Positions 1 to 48,403 of a stretch of DNA of 64,000 nucleotides are shown piece by piece. The notes below the pieces were generated by a model. The model was not told where the DNA came from and searched no databases. It worked only from the letters and a program-made list of their open reading frames with translations. Numbering within the stretch: position 1 is the first letter of the stretch; every line of letters begins with the position of its first letter. The position numbers and the translations under genes were made by a program. Location: positions 1-64,000 of the forward strand of contig CANGEW010000003.1 of assembly GCA_947452965.1 (NCBI GenBank), given 5' to 3'. This stretch comes from Chitinophagaceae bacterium. GTDB lineage: Bacteria > Bacteroidota > Bacteroidia > Chitinophagales > Chitinophagaceae.

Positions 1-434
1 ATAGAAGCAATGACATTTTGTTGTGTTTTTTCACCAAATCCCTTGTAAAGCTTTAGTCTGTTTTCTTTACATGCATAAAGCAATTCTCCTACAGTTTCGA
101 TTTGCATTTCTTTCCAAATAGTATTAATTTTTTTAGGTCCAATGCCTTTGATTTGGAGCATTTCTAAAATACCTTCTGGAGTTTTTTGAATGAATGAGTC
201 TAGCGCTTCAACTCGTCCGGTTGTAATGAGCTCGATTACTTTTTGCGCAGTAGATGCGCCAATTCCTTGAATAGAAGCAATGTTAGCATGTTCAATAGTT
301 GTCAATGGAACAGTTAGTTTCTCAATATTGAATGCCGCTGATGTGTATGATTTTATTTTAAAAGCATTTTCGCCATGAATTTCCATTAGTTTGGCTAAAA
401 GGGATATTGTGTCGGCGATTTGATAATTATCCAT
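1..434 (-). CDS. polX: DNA polymerase/3'-5' exonuclease PolX, N-terminal part (gene runs off the window)
   Basis: An open minus-strand frame starts at ATG 432-434 (MDNYQIADTISLLAKLMEI) and stays open to the window edge, giving about 144 residues. The sequence shows the helical N-terminal 8-kDa-like domain (HGENAFKIKSYTSAA) followed by helix-hairpin-helix turns: IQGIGASTAQKVIEL near residue 55, LQIKGIGPKKINTIW near residue 95, and LYKGFGEKTQQNV near 130. In the PolX family this domain binds gapped DNA. The palm domain and the C-terminal PHP exonuclease domain (whole family about 570 aa) would lie outside the window. The role is gap-filling repair synthesis, known for the family and not visible here. 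A terminator of the upstream gene lies at 478-507, so this gene probably has its own promoter. Confidence 0.88.
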   Translation of the reverse strand, partial: MDNYQIADTISLLAKLMEIHGENAFKIKSYTSAAFNIEKLTVPLTTIEHANIASIQGIGASTAQKVIELITTGRVEALDSFIQKTPEGILEMLQIKGIGPKKINTIWKEMQIETVGELLYACKENRLKLYKGFGEKTQQNVIAS

Positions 435-477
435 ATAGTAATATTGTAAGTATTAAAAGAGGAGAGGGAAGTGTTGC

Positions 478-507
478 AAAAAAAAAAGTCTCGGTAAAAA
501 CCGAGAC
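478..507 (-). terminator. Rho-independent terminator of the histone-like gene
   Basis: A perfect 8-bp stem, GTCTCGGT at 488-495 pairing with ACCGAGAC at 500-507 around an AAAA loop, is followed on the minus strand by an uninterrupted T run (A run 478-487 on the plus strand). It lies 28 bp past the stop codon of the lysine-rich gene and separates it from polX. Confidence 0.9.
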
Positions 508-535
508 AGTATCTTTTGCTGTTAGCAAAAATAGC

Positions 536-718
536 TTACTTCTTTTTTGGAGCAGCTTTCTTAGGAGCAGCTTTTTTAGCAGCAGCTTTCTTAGGAGCAG
601 CTTTTTTAGCAGCAGCTTTCTTAGGAGCAGCTTTTTTTACAGCTTTTTTAGGAGCAGCTTTCTTTGCAGCAGCTTTCTTAGGAGCAGCTTTTTTTACAGC
701 TTTTTTCTTTGTTGCCAT
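536..718 (-). CDS. Histone H1-like lysine/alanine/proline-rich small basic protein
   Basis: A 60-residue protein made almost only of Lys, Ala and Pro: MATKKKAVKK followed by repeats of the type KKAAPKKAAA. It resembles the basic tails of histone H1 and of bacterial H1-like or HU-tail proteins. It has no globular domain, signal peptide or membrane segment. By composition it should bind nucleic acid without sequence specificity; that is inference. The opposite strand is also open across this repeat, but the start (ATG 716-718), the strong terminator at 478-507 and the basic composition favour the minus strand. The DNA is a roughly 30-bp tandem repeat that could change copy number. It is monocistronic by context, facing the same way as rpmA. 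Confidence 0.8.
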   Translation of the reverse strand: MATKKKAVKKAAPKKAAAKKAAPKKAVKKAAPKKAAAKKAAPKKAAAKKAAPKKAAPKKK

Positions 719-807
719 TTTTTTTTAATTTAATTGGTTAGTAAATAATAATTAAAAATAAATATTATTTTCTAATTACCAAAAAAAAGTTTAAAAAAAT
801 ATTTTTT

Positions 808-44253: not shown

Positions 44254-44481
44254 AAATCAATCGAGTTGGAAATTAATGCCATAGATCAGAAATTAAGCAA
44301 GAGTCATCTTTAGAGTTCGAACTTGGAAATAGCTGTAAAAAAAGGAATAAGCATTAGCCGAAATGCTTGTCATTTGTGGGCTACAAGAGATTATACCAAT
44401 AAACAACGCTTGCAATATTTGATATGCCCCGATGGGATTTTGTATAATAAAGAAAAAACACAGTTCGAACTCCAAGAGTAA
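44254..44481 (+). pseudogene. Serine recombinase C-terminal remnant
   Basis: Reading this frame: KSIELEINAIDQKLSKSHL, an in-frame TAG at 44311-44313, then SSNLEIAVKKGISISRNACH, LWATRDYTNKQRLQYLICPD, GILYNKEKTQFELQE and a stop at 44479-44481. The ending strongly resembles the C-terminal coil and 'LQ.L.FP.GI.Y....' tail of Bacteroidota large serine recombinases. The catalytic N-terminal domain and the middle are absent, so only about 75 codons remain. It begins 10 bp after the DUF2452 gene and ends 49 bp before the ssrA terminator, so it marks a decayed mobile element next to ssrA. Identification is from pattern memory, not a search. Confidence 0.6.
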
Positions 44482-44530
44482 ATAGTCTATTCACCGCAAT
44501 CTCTTATCTATCCTACATTTCACCGGAAAA

Positions 44531-44560
44531 TAAAAATGGTCAACCTACACAGATTGACCA
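44531..44560 (-). terminator. Rho-independent terminator of ssrA
   Basis: TGGTCAA (44537-44543) pairs with TTGACCA (44554-44560). On the minus strand the hairpin is followed by TTTTTATTTT. It lies 14 bp past the tmRNA 3' end. Confidence 0.82.
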
Positions 44561-44574
44561 AAATTCTCGCTGGG

Positions 44575-44943
44575 TGGAGCTGCAGGGAATCGAACCCTGG
44601 TCCAAACATATTCGCCATAAGCTTTCTACATGTTTATTTACGCATTCATTGTAGGGAAAGGGCAGGGGCGCAACAAACCAACCATTTCCTTAGAAGGATG
44701 ATCTTAAACAACCGTCACTTCATTCGGTTGCAGCAATCTGTGTTTTTTTTGAGTCGGCGGCGGAGCGTGGTAACAGATCAACCTGCTCGGCGGCCCAAAT
44801 GGATGCTAATCTATCGATTAAGCAGCCATGGCATACGTAGTATTGCCATTTGAAGTTTGAATATTCAGATTTAAGTGCTAATTATCCAACGCACTACATG
44901 CTTACACTTACAAAGATCTATGCTGTCAAAACCGGTCAGCCCC
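44575..44943 (-). ncRNA. ssrA: tmRNA (SsrA), tag GNTTYAMAA
   Basis: The 5' end GGGGCTGACCGGTTTTGACA and 3' end (TTCGATTCCCTGCAGCTCC, then A) pair as a tRNA-Ala-like acceptor (GGGGCTG with CAGCTCC, one G-T). The tag reading frame is 44818-44847 on the minus strand: GGC AAT ACT ACG TAT GCC ATG GCT GCT TAA, giving GNTTYAMAA with the hydrophobic AMAA degradation end. The RNA rescues stalled ribosomes and tags the incomplete product for proteolysis. CCA is not cleanly encoded (ACCCA). A -7 box lies at 44961-44968 and a terminator at 44531-44560. Single, non-permuted gene of 369 nt. Confidence 0.96.
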
Positions 44944-44960
44944 GAGTATTTATAGCTATG

Positions 44961-44968
44961 CAAAGATA
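44961..44968 (-). promoter_or_regulatory. -7 box of ssrA
   Basis: The minus strand reads TATCTTTG, a perfect TAnnTTTG, 17 nt before the mature tmRNA 5' end. The -33 region is only T-rich. Confidence 0.65.
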
Positions 44969-45024
44969 GTAACTGTCAGGGTTAAAAAACTGCTAATGGT
45001 TAGTTCAGTTCGAAATATTGCAAA

Positions 45025-45077
45025 GGTTCCAGAAGTTCCGAGGGTTAACCTATTGAACCACTCAAACATCTTAAACC
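45025..45077. repeat. Inverted 9-mer module 1 (between ssrA and prfC)
   Basis: Direct 9-bp units GGTTCCAGA and AGTTCCGAG lead into the palindrome GGTTAACC (45043-45050). The reverse-type units TATTGAACC, ACTCAAACA and TCTTAAACC follow, all in strict 9-bp register. Same design as modules 2 and 3. Confidence 0.75.
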
Positions 45078-45085
45078 TTTTTGTC

Positions 45086-45201
45086 AGTTCCAAAGGTTGC
45101 AAAAGTTCCAAGGGTTACAAAGGTTCTAATGGTTAACCTTTTGAACTTCTTGAACGTCTTGAACCTATTGAACCACTCAAAACTCTCAAACCTCTTAAAC
45201 C
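45086..45201. repeat. Inverted 9-mer module 2 (abuts prfC stop codon)
   Basis: Five direct units (AGTTCCAAA, GGTTGCAAA, AGTTCCAAG, GGTTACAAA, GGTTCTAAT), the palindrome GGTTAACC (45131-45138), then seven reverse-type units (TTTTGAACT, TCTTGAACG, TCTTGAACC, TATTGAACC, ACTCAAAAC, TCTCAAACC, TCTTAAACC). The last base is part of the prfC stop codon, so the whole module is the prfC 3' UTR. Transcribed, it would form an imperfect hairpin with arms of more than 40 bases. Confidence 0.85.
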
Positions 45202-46787
45202 TACTTATGAATCTCACTGGTAAAATGGAACTCAATATCCGGATTATTAGTTCTTTCTGTATTTAGGAACCATTCACTTTGCGCTAAATATACCACATGA
45301 CCGTCTTTATCCTCGGCAATATTGGCTTGTTTGTATTTAGTAAAGTCATCCAGTTTTTTGGGGTCTTTGCTGGTTAACCAACATGCTTTATAAAAAGGCA
45401 AATTGTTCATTTGAACAGATGCTCCATATTCTTGCAGAAGTCTGTATTGTATAACCTCAAATTGAAGTTCACCCACACAACCGATGATTTTTTTATTGCC
45501 TCCAAATTGGGTAAACAATTGGGCAACACCTTCATCAGTCAACTGCAACAACCCTTTCTCCAATTGCTTGGTTTTCATTGGATCTCTATTTACCACCTCT
45601 TTAAAAATTTCAGGAGAAAAACTAGGAATTCCGGTAAAAAAATACTTTTCCCCTTCGGTCAATGTATCCCCAATTTTAAAGTTTCCTGTATCAAATAAAC
45701 CAACCACATCACCCGGATACGCTTCTTCTATTACATCTTTTTGACGCGCCAAAAAGCTATAAGGATTAGAAAAGCGAACATCCTTTTCCAACCGAACATG
45801 CTTATAAAAGGTATTTCTTGCAAACTTCCCACTACAAACTCTTAAAAAGGCAATCCTATCCCTGTGCTTTGGATCTAAATTGGCATGTATTTTAAAAATA
45901 AACCCGCTAAACTTATCCTCTTCAGGTGCTACATCACGAGCAGTTGTTTGTCTTACTCTAGGAGTTGGAGCAATTCTTACAAACGTATCCAGCATCTCCT
46001 TCACTCCAAAATTATTCACAGCGCTACCAAAAAAAACAGGGGCTGTCTTGCCAGATAGATAGTCATCTAAATTCAATGCACCATACACTCCATCAATTAA
46101 CTCTACATCTTCTCTCAAAATAGAGGCGTCTTTTTCACCTATTTTAGAATCTAATATAGAGTCATTTAAATTATTGATATTTAACACATTATCATCATTT
46201 GCTTTTGTTCCTGCTGTGAATAATACCAAGCTTTTCTCATGCAAGTCATACACCCCTTTAAAATCCTTTCCACTGTTAATGGGAACGGTCATTGGATGTA
46301 ATTGAATCTTCAACTCCTGTTCAATCTCCTCTAGCAAATCAAACCGATTCTTACCATCTCTATCCATTTTGTTGATGAATACAATCACAGGCGTTTTTCT
46401 CATTGAAATAACTTCCATCAATCTGCGGGTTTGCTCTTCCACTCCATTTACACTATCTACTACCAGAACAACACTATCTACCGCCGTTAAGGTTCTGTAA
46501 GTATCTTCCGCAAAATCTTTATGGCCCGGTGTATCCAAAAGATTAATCAAATGATCTTTATACTCAAAAGTCATCACACTCGTTGCCACACTGATACCTC
46601 TTTGACGCTCAATTTCCATGAAATCGCTGGTAGCATGTTTTTTGATTTTATTGCTTTTAACGGCACCTGCTGTTTGAATGGCTCCCCCAAACAATAGGAA
46701 CTTCTCTGTTAAAGTGGTTTTACCGGCATCCGGGTGAGAGATAATGGCGAATGTTTTCCTTTTATTTATTTCGTTGATGTACTTCAT
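45201..46787 (-). CDS. prfC: Peptide chain release factor 3 (RF3)
   Basis: A 528-residue translational GTPase that removes RF1/RF2 from the ribosome after termination. G1 [16 protein letters not shown] (residues 13-28), switch [12 protein letters not shown]3 [17 protein letters not shown] and G4 [11 protein letters not shown] are all present; the C-terminal half ([20 protein letters not shown]) is typical of RF3 and separates it from EF-G. Length is as in E. coli. It lies between purB and ssrA on the same strand, with inverted 9-mer modules on both sides, and has its own promoter 11 nt upstream. Confidence 0.97.
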
Positions 46788-46798
46788 AATTCAGGGTG

Positions 46799-46806
46799 CA
46801 AAGTTA
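46799..46806 (-). promoter_or_regulatory. -7 box of prfC
   Basis: The minus strand reads TAACTTTG followed by CACC, the classic Bacteroidota context, 11 nt before the prfC ATG. It lies downstream of module 3, which therefore is not in the prfC leader. Confidence 0.65.
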
Positions 46807-46834
46807 CGAAAAAGTTCAGTCGTTCTGTTTTATG

Positions 46835-46924
46835 GGTTTCATAGGTTCAAGAAGTTTCAGAAGTTCGAGAGGTTTCAGAAGTTAAACTTATTGAACCTTT
46901 GTAACCTATAGAACCTTTGTAACC
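46835..46924. repeat. Inverted 9-mer module 3 (between purB and prfC)
   Basis: Five direct units (GGTTTCATA, GGTTCAAGA, AGTTTCAGA, AGTTCGAGA, GGTTTCAGA), the near-palindromic centre AGTTAAACT (46880-46888), then TATTGAACC, TTTGTAACC, TATAGAACC and TTTGTAACC in 9-bp register. It lies 35 bp after the purB stop codon and 28 bp upstream of the prfC -7 box. Confidence 0.85.
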
Positions 46925-46958
46925 TCCGGAAGAATCTTTACGTTTTGACAGATACAAA

Positions 46959-48302
46959 TCAGTTGGCCGAAACGACTCCCGTATAATTATGTGGAGTAAT
47001 TCTCTTTAATTCCGCTTTCACTTCTTTTGAGACTTTCAGTTTTGCTATAAACTGATGAATCGCTTTCTTGTCTATTTTGTTGCCCCTGGTTAATTCTTTG
47101 AGTGCCTCGTATGGGGCAGGATAATTTTCTCTTCGTAAAATGGTTTGTATGGCTTCTGCAACCACTGCCCAATTTGAATCTAAGTCTATTTTTATTTTTG
47201 GTTCATTTAGAATAAGCTTTTGAAGTCCTTTTTCCAATGATTGTATCGCGATGGCGGTATGTGCTAACGGGACTCCAATATTCCTTATTACGGTACTGTC
47301 TGTAAGGTCTCGTTGTAATCGTGAAATAGGAAGTTTTGCAGATAAATGTTCTAATAAAGCATTCGCAATTCCAAGATTACCCTCGGCATTTTCAAAATCT
47401 ATAGGGTTTACTTTATGGGGCATTGCGCTGCTGCCTACTTCCCCTTTTTTTATTTTTTGTTTGAAATAATCCATGCTTATATAAGACCAAATGTCTCTGC
47501 ATAAATCAGTTAAAATTGTATTGATGCGTTTGATGGCATCAAAGTGTGCTGCCAAAATATCATAATGTTCAATTTGAGTAGTGAATTGTTGACGCTCTAT
47601 CCCCAATTTTTCTTCTAAGAATTCATTTCCGAATTTCACCCAATTGTATTTGGGAAAGGCGATGTGGTGGGCATTGAAATTTCCAGTAGCACCGCCAAAT
47701 TTTCCTGAAAAAGGGATATAGCTAAATAATTGAATTTGGTTTTCTATACGTTCAACAAATACCATTAACTCCTTGCCTAATTTGGTTGGAGATGCCGGTT
47801 GACCATGTGTTCTGGCTAGTAATGGTATATGTTTCCACTCAATAGAAAGTTTATGTATTTGATGTTGTAAATTTAATAAGTTGGGTAAATAGATTTGTTC
47901 TACTGCATCTTTCCATAACAGGGGAATGGCAGTATTATTGATGTCTTGCGAGGTTAAACCAAAATGAACCCACTCTTTTATATTTCCTAACCCAAGTTCA
48001 TCTAGTTTCTTTTTTAAAAAATATTCAACTGCTTTTACGTCATGATTTGTGATGCTTTCGGTAGTTTTTATTTCTGCTGCTTGATTGACATCAAAATCAG
48101 ACACGATTTTTTCAATGGCTGCTTTATGGGTATTGGAAAGTTTAAAAAACTTTTTTTCTGCTAAAAAAATGAAGTAAGCAACTTCAACTTTTAATCGGTA
48201 ATGTATTAGTGCATATTCTGAAAAGAAATTAGATAATTCTTTTGTCGCTTTCGCATAGCGACCATCAATAGGAGAGATGGCGGTAAGAGTATGGTGATTC
48301 AT
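46959..48302 (-). CDS. purB: Adenylosuccinate lyase
   Basis: A 447-residue enzyme with two roles in purine synthesis: SAICAR to AICAR and adenylosuccinate to AMP. It begins MNHHTLTAISPIDGRYAKAT and contains TSQDINNTAIP near residue 120, ARTHGQPASPTKLGKEL near 168 and the signature loop GEVGSSAMPHKVNPIDFENAEGN near 290. It belongs to the longer E. coli-like PurB group. ATG 48302 is preferred to an upstream in-frame start because the -7 box at 48307-48314 lies just before it and the family starts at this motif. Confidence 0.97.
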   Translation of the reverse strand: MNHHTLTAISPIDGRYAKATKELSNFFSEYALIHYRLKVEVAYFIFLAEKKFFKLSNTHKAAIEKIVSDFDVNQAAEIKTTESITNHDVKAVEYFLKKKLDELGLGNIKEWVHFGLTSQDINNTAIPLLWKDAVEQIYLPNLLNLQHQIHKLSIEWKHIPLLARTHGQPASPTKLGKELMVFVERIENQIQLFSYIPFSGKFGGATGNFNAHHIAFPKYNWVKFGNEFLEEKLGIERQQFTTQIEHYDILAAHFDAIKRINTILTDLCRDIWSYISMDYFKQKIKKGEVGSSAMPHKVNPIDFENAEGNLGIANALLEHLSAKLPISRLQRDLTDSTVIRNIGVPLAHTAIAIQSLEKGLQKLILNEPKIKIDLDSNWAVVAEAIQTILRRENYPAPYEALKELTRGNKIDKKAIHQFIAKLKVSKEVKAELKRITPHNYTGVVSAN

Positions 48303-48306
48303 ATCG

Positions 48307-48314
48307 CAAAAATA
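48307..48314 (-). promoter_or_regulatory. -7 box of purB
   Basis: The minus strand reads TATTTTTG, ending 4 nt before the purB ATG; a TTG (minus, 48333-48335) lies 18 bp upstream. The mRNA would be leaderless or nearly so. Confidence 0.6.
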
Positions 48315-48403
48315 CGAATATTGCCGAAAGGACAACAGTACAAATTCAATTGGTTTTTAACATAGGCTTCTCTTTTGTTTGAATAGGATTGACATAAAAA
48401 AAC

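Follow-up and report, generated by a model that had tools for sequence, protein, structure and literature searches.

Inward-facing arrays of 9-bp units behind stop codons of Chitinophagaceae: a possible BIME-like boundary element at gene 3' ends

The spacers on both sides of prfC in a Chitinophagaceae bacterium contain modules of tandem 9-bp units with a defined sequence, a fixed order of two inward-facing arms, a distinct polarity within the spacers and a preferred location behind stop codons; between orthologs the phase of the GTT triplet is conserved without covariation of the arms. We tentatively interpret the modules as a BIME-like, dispersed, non-coding 3'-end boundary element of Chitinophagaceae which is read by a putative unit-binding protein, an interpretation that appears plausible, if somewhat short of probable. 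This estimate refers to the whole statement; anatomy, place and polarity are better supported than the presumed protein reader and boundary role.

Architecture and occurrence of the modules

Three modules around prfC had been described in the first-pass annotation of the window (the whole analysed stretch of 64,000 nucleotides). All of them were recovered by an arm scan and in the sequence, with slightly wider edges at 45008-45076, 45087-45200 and 46827-46923. The unit length of exactly 9 bp and the centres, GGTTAACC twice and AGTTAAACT once, agree with that description, and neither the scan nor, for GTT-type arrays, a tandem-repeat program found further copies in the 64 kb. The features are as follows:

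44572..44943, - strand: ssrA (tmRNA), context gene (Rfam RF00023, E 1.3e-42)
45008..45043, + strand: module 1, left arm, 4 units, class B (scan 21.9 bits; arm class)
45044..45049, no strand: module 1, centre GTTAAC (sequence; loop listing)
45050..45076, - strand: module 1, right arm, 3 units, class A (scan 28.4 bits; arm class)
45087..45131, + strand: module 2, left arm, 5 units, GTTCCAAAG-type, class B (scan 38.9 bits; arm class)
45132..45137, no strand: module 2, centre GTTAAC, inside GGTTAACC (sequence; loop listing)
45138..45200, - strand: module 2, right arm, 7 units, GTTCAAGAG-type, class A (scan 66.7 bits)
45201..46787, - strand: prfC, 528 aa, context gene between the modules (ORF; translation; relatives in named genomes)
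46827..46880, + strand: module 3, left arm, 6 units, class A, GTTTCAGAA/GTTCAAGAA (scan 52.5 bits; arm class)
46879..46923, - strand: module 3, right arm, 5 units, class B, GTTACAAAG-type (scan 33.5 bits; arm class)
46959..48335, - strand: purB, 458 aa, context gene (ORF; translation)

We take the 528-aa ORF to be prfC, encoding release factor 3, and the 458-aa ORF to be purB. Modules 1 and 2 lie in the prfC/ssrA spacer, the outer unit of the right arm of module 2 abutting the prfC stop codon, and module 3 in the prfC/purB spacer, its right arm 35 nt from the end of the purB ORF. An Rfam search of positions 44400-47400 revealed tmRNA alone above its curated cut-off and, over the modules, only sub-threshold matches to miRNA models at 46823-46915 (best 29.4 versus a cut-off of 83 bits). 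The genes purB, prfC and ssrA are co-oriented in the window; by eye, prfC and purB look convergent in several relatives with an array between their ends, which resembles a rearrangement confined to this region, the gene ends that carry arrays being the same. Elsewhere in the window, about 10 copies of a 15-bp tandem repeat at 543-706 overlap an ORF at 407-733 (+); read on the - strand, this repeat would be lysine/alanine-rich (an unchecked reading).

The unit consensus, based on seed units of the genome under study (G000) and of genomes G005 and G011, is GTT-C/T-A/C-A-A/G-A-G with the general form GTT-Y-N-A-R-A-G. A module consists of a GTT arm, a loop and an AAC arm, the arms facing inward: among neighbouring arms less than 90 nt apart, 38 pairs follow the order GTT-then-AAC, 4 the opposite order and 12 point in the same direction, and of the four opposite pairs three lie between consecutive modules and one before unpaired GTT arms in locus L151. 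Arms comprise 2-8 units, the 50 modules used for folding are 48-141 bp long and built of GTT-N6 units, and many arrays have one detectable arm only. The proposed continuation of the 9-bp register across the centre applies to the modules of the window but not to a set of 38 modules, whose loops of 0-83 nt are mostly out of register; the view that the spacing and the facing-arm plan outweigh the exact bases was borne out.

The order of the units along the arms is common to different copies. Counted from the outer end, the same-index identity in G011 is 0.608 versus 0.575 ± 0.004 after shuffling of units, and 0 of 300 shuffles were as high in each of G011, G005, G098 and G092; counted from the inner end, the values in G044 are 0.599 versus 0.505 ± 0.011. 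The signal is weak in G000 (8/300 shuffles for the outer, 139/300 for the inner end) and G049 (10/300 and 7/300) and not significant in G102 (69/300 and 162/300). In G000, the two arms belong to different classes in 18 of 19 modules, one being class A (GTTTCAGAG, GTTCAAGAG) and the other class B (GTTCCAAAG, GTTGCAAAG), compared with 9.7 ± 2.2 under the null model; three loci contribute more than one module to this count, one of them four and the others two each. This rule is absent in G011 (11/24) and in G005 and G011 together (15/33), and the set of G017, G044 and G049 held no two-arm module for the test.

The draft genome comprises 2,335,374 bases in 93 contigs and is 86.9% complete. Its nearest prfC relatives in named genomes, with 89-93% identity among the best 80 of 593 matches (a set which may lack the genome's own record), come from records of Ferruginibacter, Chitinophagaceae, Sphingobacteriales or Bacteroidetes, suggesting that it is probably Ferruginibacter-like. 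The 9-bp arrays exceed chance and occur genome-wide: when 455,620 bases of the present genome were scanned with a unit profile whose training set was three of the scanned genomes, 27 arms reached at least 14 bits versus 4 in one first-order resample, and 19 versus 0 reached 22 bits. A DNA query found 16 places in the genome, a pattern of five GTT at 9-bp spacing gave 31 matches versus 0 for the reversed pattern, and a two-arm pattern gave 42 versus 2 for its control, the matches overlapping in both pattern counts.

Over larger sets of genomes, the two-arm pattern has matches in 14 of 20 chosen genomes and none in 6, and the five-unit pattern in 45 of the 93 genomes of the genus. The highest five-unit counts belong to small genomes, namely G049 (634; control 117), G083 (351; 46), G044 (224; 22) and G096 (221; 36), and as these controls are nonzero, part of the counts reflects other period-9 or simple repeats. 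In a family sample the five-unit pattern occurs in 67 of 244 genomes, some of the printed matches looking like coding or other repeats and the count of G325 equalling its control; GTTYAA-type units recur in the Chitinophagaceae genera g20, g39, g61, g66, g87, g98 and g106. A stricter pattern matched 5 of 345 genomes of a phylum sample; three of these belong to the 12 family members in it, and the other two, with one odd match each, to the 333 genomes from outside the family. The searches of the genome and its relatives thus reveal a genome-wide intergenic element with copies beyond the three of the window, and not the purely local drift considered as an alternative in the first-pass annotation. 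No account of 9-bp inward-facing repeats or of their letters was found among the literature matches listed, which cover open-licence papers.

Placement in spacers and conservation between orthologs

Spacers of at least 60 bp were surveyed in fetched stretches of seven genomes with simple ORF calls of at least 300 nt. Arrays are present in 17 of the 71 convergent spacers, in 45 of the 325 co-directional ones and in 7 of the 149 divergent ones; since the stretches were picked in part for holding matches, these rates are too high in absolute terms. Of 79 stop-side array edges, 30 are no more than 15 nt away from the stop codon versus 14.7 ± 3.0 upon random placement (maximum 24 in 1000); of 59 start-side edges, 7 are that close to the start versus 10.0 ± 2.5. 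Single arms of ten genomes, each counted once per flanking gene, are predominantly GTT-sense up to 40 nt from the stop codon (30 versus 6 AAC-sense, p 7e-5) and reversed farther away (GTT 11 versus AAC 24, and 12 versus 30). With respect to start codons, AAC-sense arms are in the majority within 150 nt (GTT 4 versus 11, and 13 versus 28) and GTT-sense arms beyond this distance (22 versus 9). Both the placement and the polarity speak for a function at transcription-unit ends. In co-directional spacers of eight genomes, terminator-like sites accompany 12 of 85 array-bearing gene ends versus 129 of 425 others (p 0.002); the deficit is not significant in convergent spacers of these genomes (19/66 versus 72/176, p 0.10), and in their divergent spacers the figures are 2/12 versus 27/202.

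Orthologous arms could be aligned for the species pairs G011/G005 and G092/G098, while two further pairs yielded no aligned arms. Pooling the alignments of these pairs gives 10 changes among 259 cases for unit positions 1-3 and 75 among 514 for positions 4-9. Whole arms differ at 85 of 773 positions (0.110) versus 347 of 3666 (0.095) in other aligned intergenic DNA (p 0.20), about as much as the coding flanks (1677/15833; 0.106); as whole arms differ no less than intergenic DNA or coding flanks, the constraint lies on the GTT and not on the arm. Because arms were found by GTT in one species, other GTT/AAC triplets in aligned intergenic DNA served as control. In-phase GTT triplets changed in 0 of 28 cases from G098 to G092 (control 7/25, p 0.003), in 0 of 27 from G092 to G098 (7/29, p 0.011) and in 4 of 50 from G005 to G011 (21/72, p 0.006); the comparison from G011 to G005 is not significant (6/54 versus 13/63, p 0.21), and the two directions of one species pair share loci and are not independent. 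Positions 7 and 9 change most in the G092/G098 pair (10/27 and 10/26; from G098 to G092 11/29 and 10/29) and do not stand out in the G005/G011 pair. That the GTT phase is conserved while the arms do not covary speaks for the units, and not a stem, being what is recognised; of the roles originally suggested, the protein-binding array gains support from the conserved phased GTT and the self-spreading element from the unit order common to copies. The identity of G005/G011 orthologs was seen to vary between about 72 and 99% along the genome, as if segments had recently been exchanged between the species.

The spacers themselves turn over rapidly. Of 11 spacers of G011 compared with G005, 9 could be aligned. 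Arms are identical in L195 and L196 (flank segments 79-99% alike) and altered by an indel and substitutions in L213 (flanks 96-99%), L212 and L203 retain recognisable modules in diverged spacers, and the remaining aligned spacers differ strongly. Compared with the single module of G011 at L203, G005 carries three tandem copies (L155), the second arm of the last one being decayed. Of 27 chosen relatives, 24 yielded a prfC gene, and for 20 of them the gene end could be placed. Scoring 9-bp arms follow the stop codon in four of these 20 (G011, G012, G090, G094); in G092 and G043, an array of the GCTGGATAG type and one of the AAAAAGT type, respectively, were recognised by eye at this position. At prfC of named Ferruginibacter-like genomes (L056, L057, L058, L060), further short-period arrays in facing or tandem arrangement are visible by eye, namely TTAAACGCC-type 9-mers, ATTACGA-type 7-mers and AAAGCTG-type repeats. 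Among 31 module comparisons between sister species with an ortholog, which cover both directions of two pairs and overlap, 26 have arms in both species and 5 in one only; 66 modules had no usable ortholog. None of these five loci is a clean empty site, as the other species has 39-198 bp there. By eye, four of them hold another short-period array instead: G011 has a CAGCTTATC-type array at the G005 module L160:9890-9976, 8-bp arrays are found in G092 at L258 of G098 and in G011 at L165 of G005, and a 7-bp array in G005 at L199 of G011. The fifth locus (L160:1355) contains a degenerate remnant.

Arm pairing and competing explanations

Alternatively, the modules might act as RNA hairpins, base pairing between the two arms in the mRNA serving to terminate or stabilise transcripts (as terminator or 3' stabiliser) and the 9-bp period being a tolerant way of building a long stem. 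We regard this explanation as rather unlikely. It is in line with the position of the modules after stop codons, the scarcity of canonical terminators beside arrays in co-directional spacers and the folding of 50 modules, with a mean z of -4.0 and -4.3 on the two strands and z < -2 in 40 and 44 of them; yet any facing-arm plan would give good folding on both strands. Selection for the RNA hairpins suggested in the first-pass annotation found no support in the pairing of arms. Own arms are no more complementary than swapped ones (0.689 versus 0.696 ± 0.010; 38 modules), their energies are worse by 2.76 kcal/mol (p 0.0015; 44 of 48 modules testable), and no compensatory change between arms emerged from these swaps. 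In G000 alone own arms reach 0.454 versus 0.526 ± 0.021, and 499 of 500 swaps equalled or surpassed them; with the best slip, G005 shows a similar tendency (480/500 swaps, 9 modules), and G011, G092 and G098 are neutral, the test by genome having left out G102 (5 modules) and G012 (1).

Strand-specific features point in the same direction. In the transcribed strand of 35 co-directional modules, 64 mismatches are G.U-compatible versus 92 A.C, the opposite of what stem selection would favour (p 0.03). Among 27 co-directional modules, 9 fold better on the sense strand (p 0.058), and when a margin of 3 kcal/mol is required, the more stable fold is on the gene strand in 6 modules and on the other strand in 14; mismatch strand asymmetry within modules showed no excess over random arm pairs. 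The many arrays with a single detectable arm also speak against a hairpin. Selection for an RNA stem found no support in swapped arms (identity and energy), in the G.U/A.C comparison or in the better-folding strand relative to the gene strand.

A selfish dispersed repeat of the MITE or REPIN kind, copying itself into tolerated sites behind stop codons and serving no host function, is also fairly improbable. The unit order common to copies, the pairing of one arm per class in G000, reminiscent of the two ends of a mobile element, the patchy copy number among relatives and the tandem duplication of a module at one locus are compatible with it. On the other hand, orthologs retain the phased GTT, the polarity rule extends to arrays of other sequence (see below), and no clean empty site was met at the five one-species-only loci, with 66 further modules lacking a usable ortholog. 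Moreover, Y1_Tnp (PF01797), the sole transposase family tested, has 0 matches in the array-bearing genomes G000 (86.9% complete), G017, G097 and G105; it is present in 79 of 90 genomes of the genus, with or without arrays.

Neutral replication slippage and template switching in spacers with unrecognised units is very unlikely: several short-period sequences coexist, spacers change rapidly between species and whole arms are no more conserved than other intergenic DNA, but one unit consensus recurs at many loci of several genomes and in other genera, the polarity is inward, GTT is constrained with positions 7 and 9 free in the G092/G098 pair, and the arms are unlike recent inverted copies of each other.

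Other short-period arrays, related systems and a proposed role

The 9-bp GTT modules are accompanied by further arrays. A count of intergenic arrays over fetched stretches of 11 genomes gave 184, with periods of 7 (64), 8 (15), 9 (92), 10 (6), 11 (4) and 12 bp (3). In non-GTT arrays, G exceeds C in 33 of 45 cases in the left half of the spacer versus 12 of 55 in the right half (p 2.8e-7), the corresponding figures for GTT arms being 36/45 and 7/39; purine content does not separate the halves for non-GTT arrays (28/45 versus 25/55). A background strand skew of spacers was rejected as the cause of this polarity, since it amounts to +0.029/-0.033 in array-free spacers versus +0.094/-0.103 in array spacers with the arrays masked. 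Near 9-bp arms (L007, L039, L041, L045, L156, L163 and others), 7-bp GTTTGGN / AAACACC, 9-10-bp GCTGGATAG and 7-bp AAAATGT and AAAAAGT arrays were noticed. Loci L174, L177, L178, L181, L182 and L184 of G049, G017 and G044 carry 8-bp arrays of the CACGAAGG / CGCAAAGA type which precede a core AACCTTTTGAACNNATTGAACNNATTGAACCTTTTGAAC; its NN pairs vary, the rest is largely kept, and several copies share a lead ending in ...CTTCC before the core.

A more general version of the boundary concept is conceivable, in which spacers carry a sequence-independent code of short-period arms with the G-rich strand inward. Period and strand polarity, not the motif, would be read, and units (9-bp GTT, 9-bp GCTGGATAG, 7-bp GTTTGGN, 8-bp CACGAAGG) would swap at orthologous sites. 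We consider it improbable; it builds on the non-GTT polarity and the array swaps at orthologous loci, both with small numbers.

Several known systems resemble the modules in part. Intrinsic and bidirectional terminators are also inverted repeats behind stop codons and most frequent between convergent genes, whereas the modules show no sign of stem covariation. In the Nostoc tRNA-Leu intron, P6b is a degenerate heptanucleotide stem with two facing arms of degenerate tandem units; it is a single intron stem, and the modules are dispersed and devoid of arm covariation. Cyanobacterial STRR heptamers have several unit sequences per genome, and the 184 arrays of the 11 genomes likewise are tandem and intergenic, of fixed short period and of several sequences per genome. 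According to PMC4679880, the TAACTGA repeats of Beggiatoaceae and some Bacteroidetes are 7-bp intergenic direct repeats with a patchy distribution, located mostly just before start codons in the Maribeggiatoa genome, with one inverted case. STRR and TAACTGA repeats share with the present arrays the short period, intergenic position and patchy distribution, whereas the modules differ from TAACTGA repeats by 9-bp units, two inward-facing arms and a frequent position just after stop codons.

BIMEs of E. coli presumably act as two-sided boundaries at the ends of transcription units. Like REP, BIME and REPIN elements, the modules are dispersed, intergenic, inverted and mosaic. REP-type elements are found mostly between convergent or co-directional genes, and REPs are palindromes of 20-40 bp, most of them tagged GTAG or CGTC, as described in PMC3733652. 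The modules share the preference for co-directional and convergent over divergent spacers; in contrast to tagged palindromes, their arms are composed of tandem 9-bp units, and by eye no GTAG/CGTC tag is common to the 50 modules. Membership in the REP/RAYT system was rejected, as the tagged palindrome of 20-40 bp is not found and no RAYT partner was detected in several array-bearing genomes. The BIME, with its similar intergenic distribution, is the nearest functional analogue, although two defining REP features are lacking.

For the preferred reading, a boundary element recognised by protein, we propose the following scenario. A putative oligomeric protein would contact the phased GTT triplets along the arms with one protomer per 9 bp, with the leading (GTT) arm of any transcript running into the spacer as an alternative target to the DNA. 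Such a complex might, similar to BIMEs, form a two-sided boundary at transcription-unit ends which stops RNA polymerase or shields the 3' end and separates convergent transcription. Short-period arrays of other sequence with the same inward polarity seem able to replace the module. As 48 of the 93 genomes of the genus lack a match to the five-unit pattern, the function would be dispensable or served otherwise.

If this scenario is correct, members of a bacterial family mark their gene ends by a repeat which keeps phase and facing direction and leaves many letters free. Such marks would tend to escape both motif searches and RNA covariation searches, and the scenario would help to explain other short-period intergenic repeats in these genomes. 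With a defined unit, a defined place and paired species, the modules offer a starting point for finding the reading factor.
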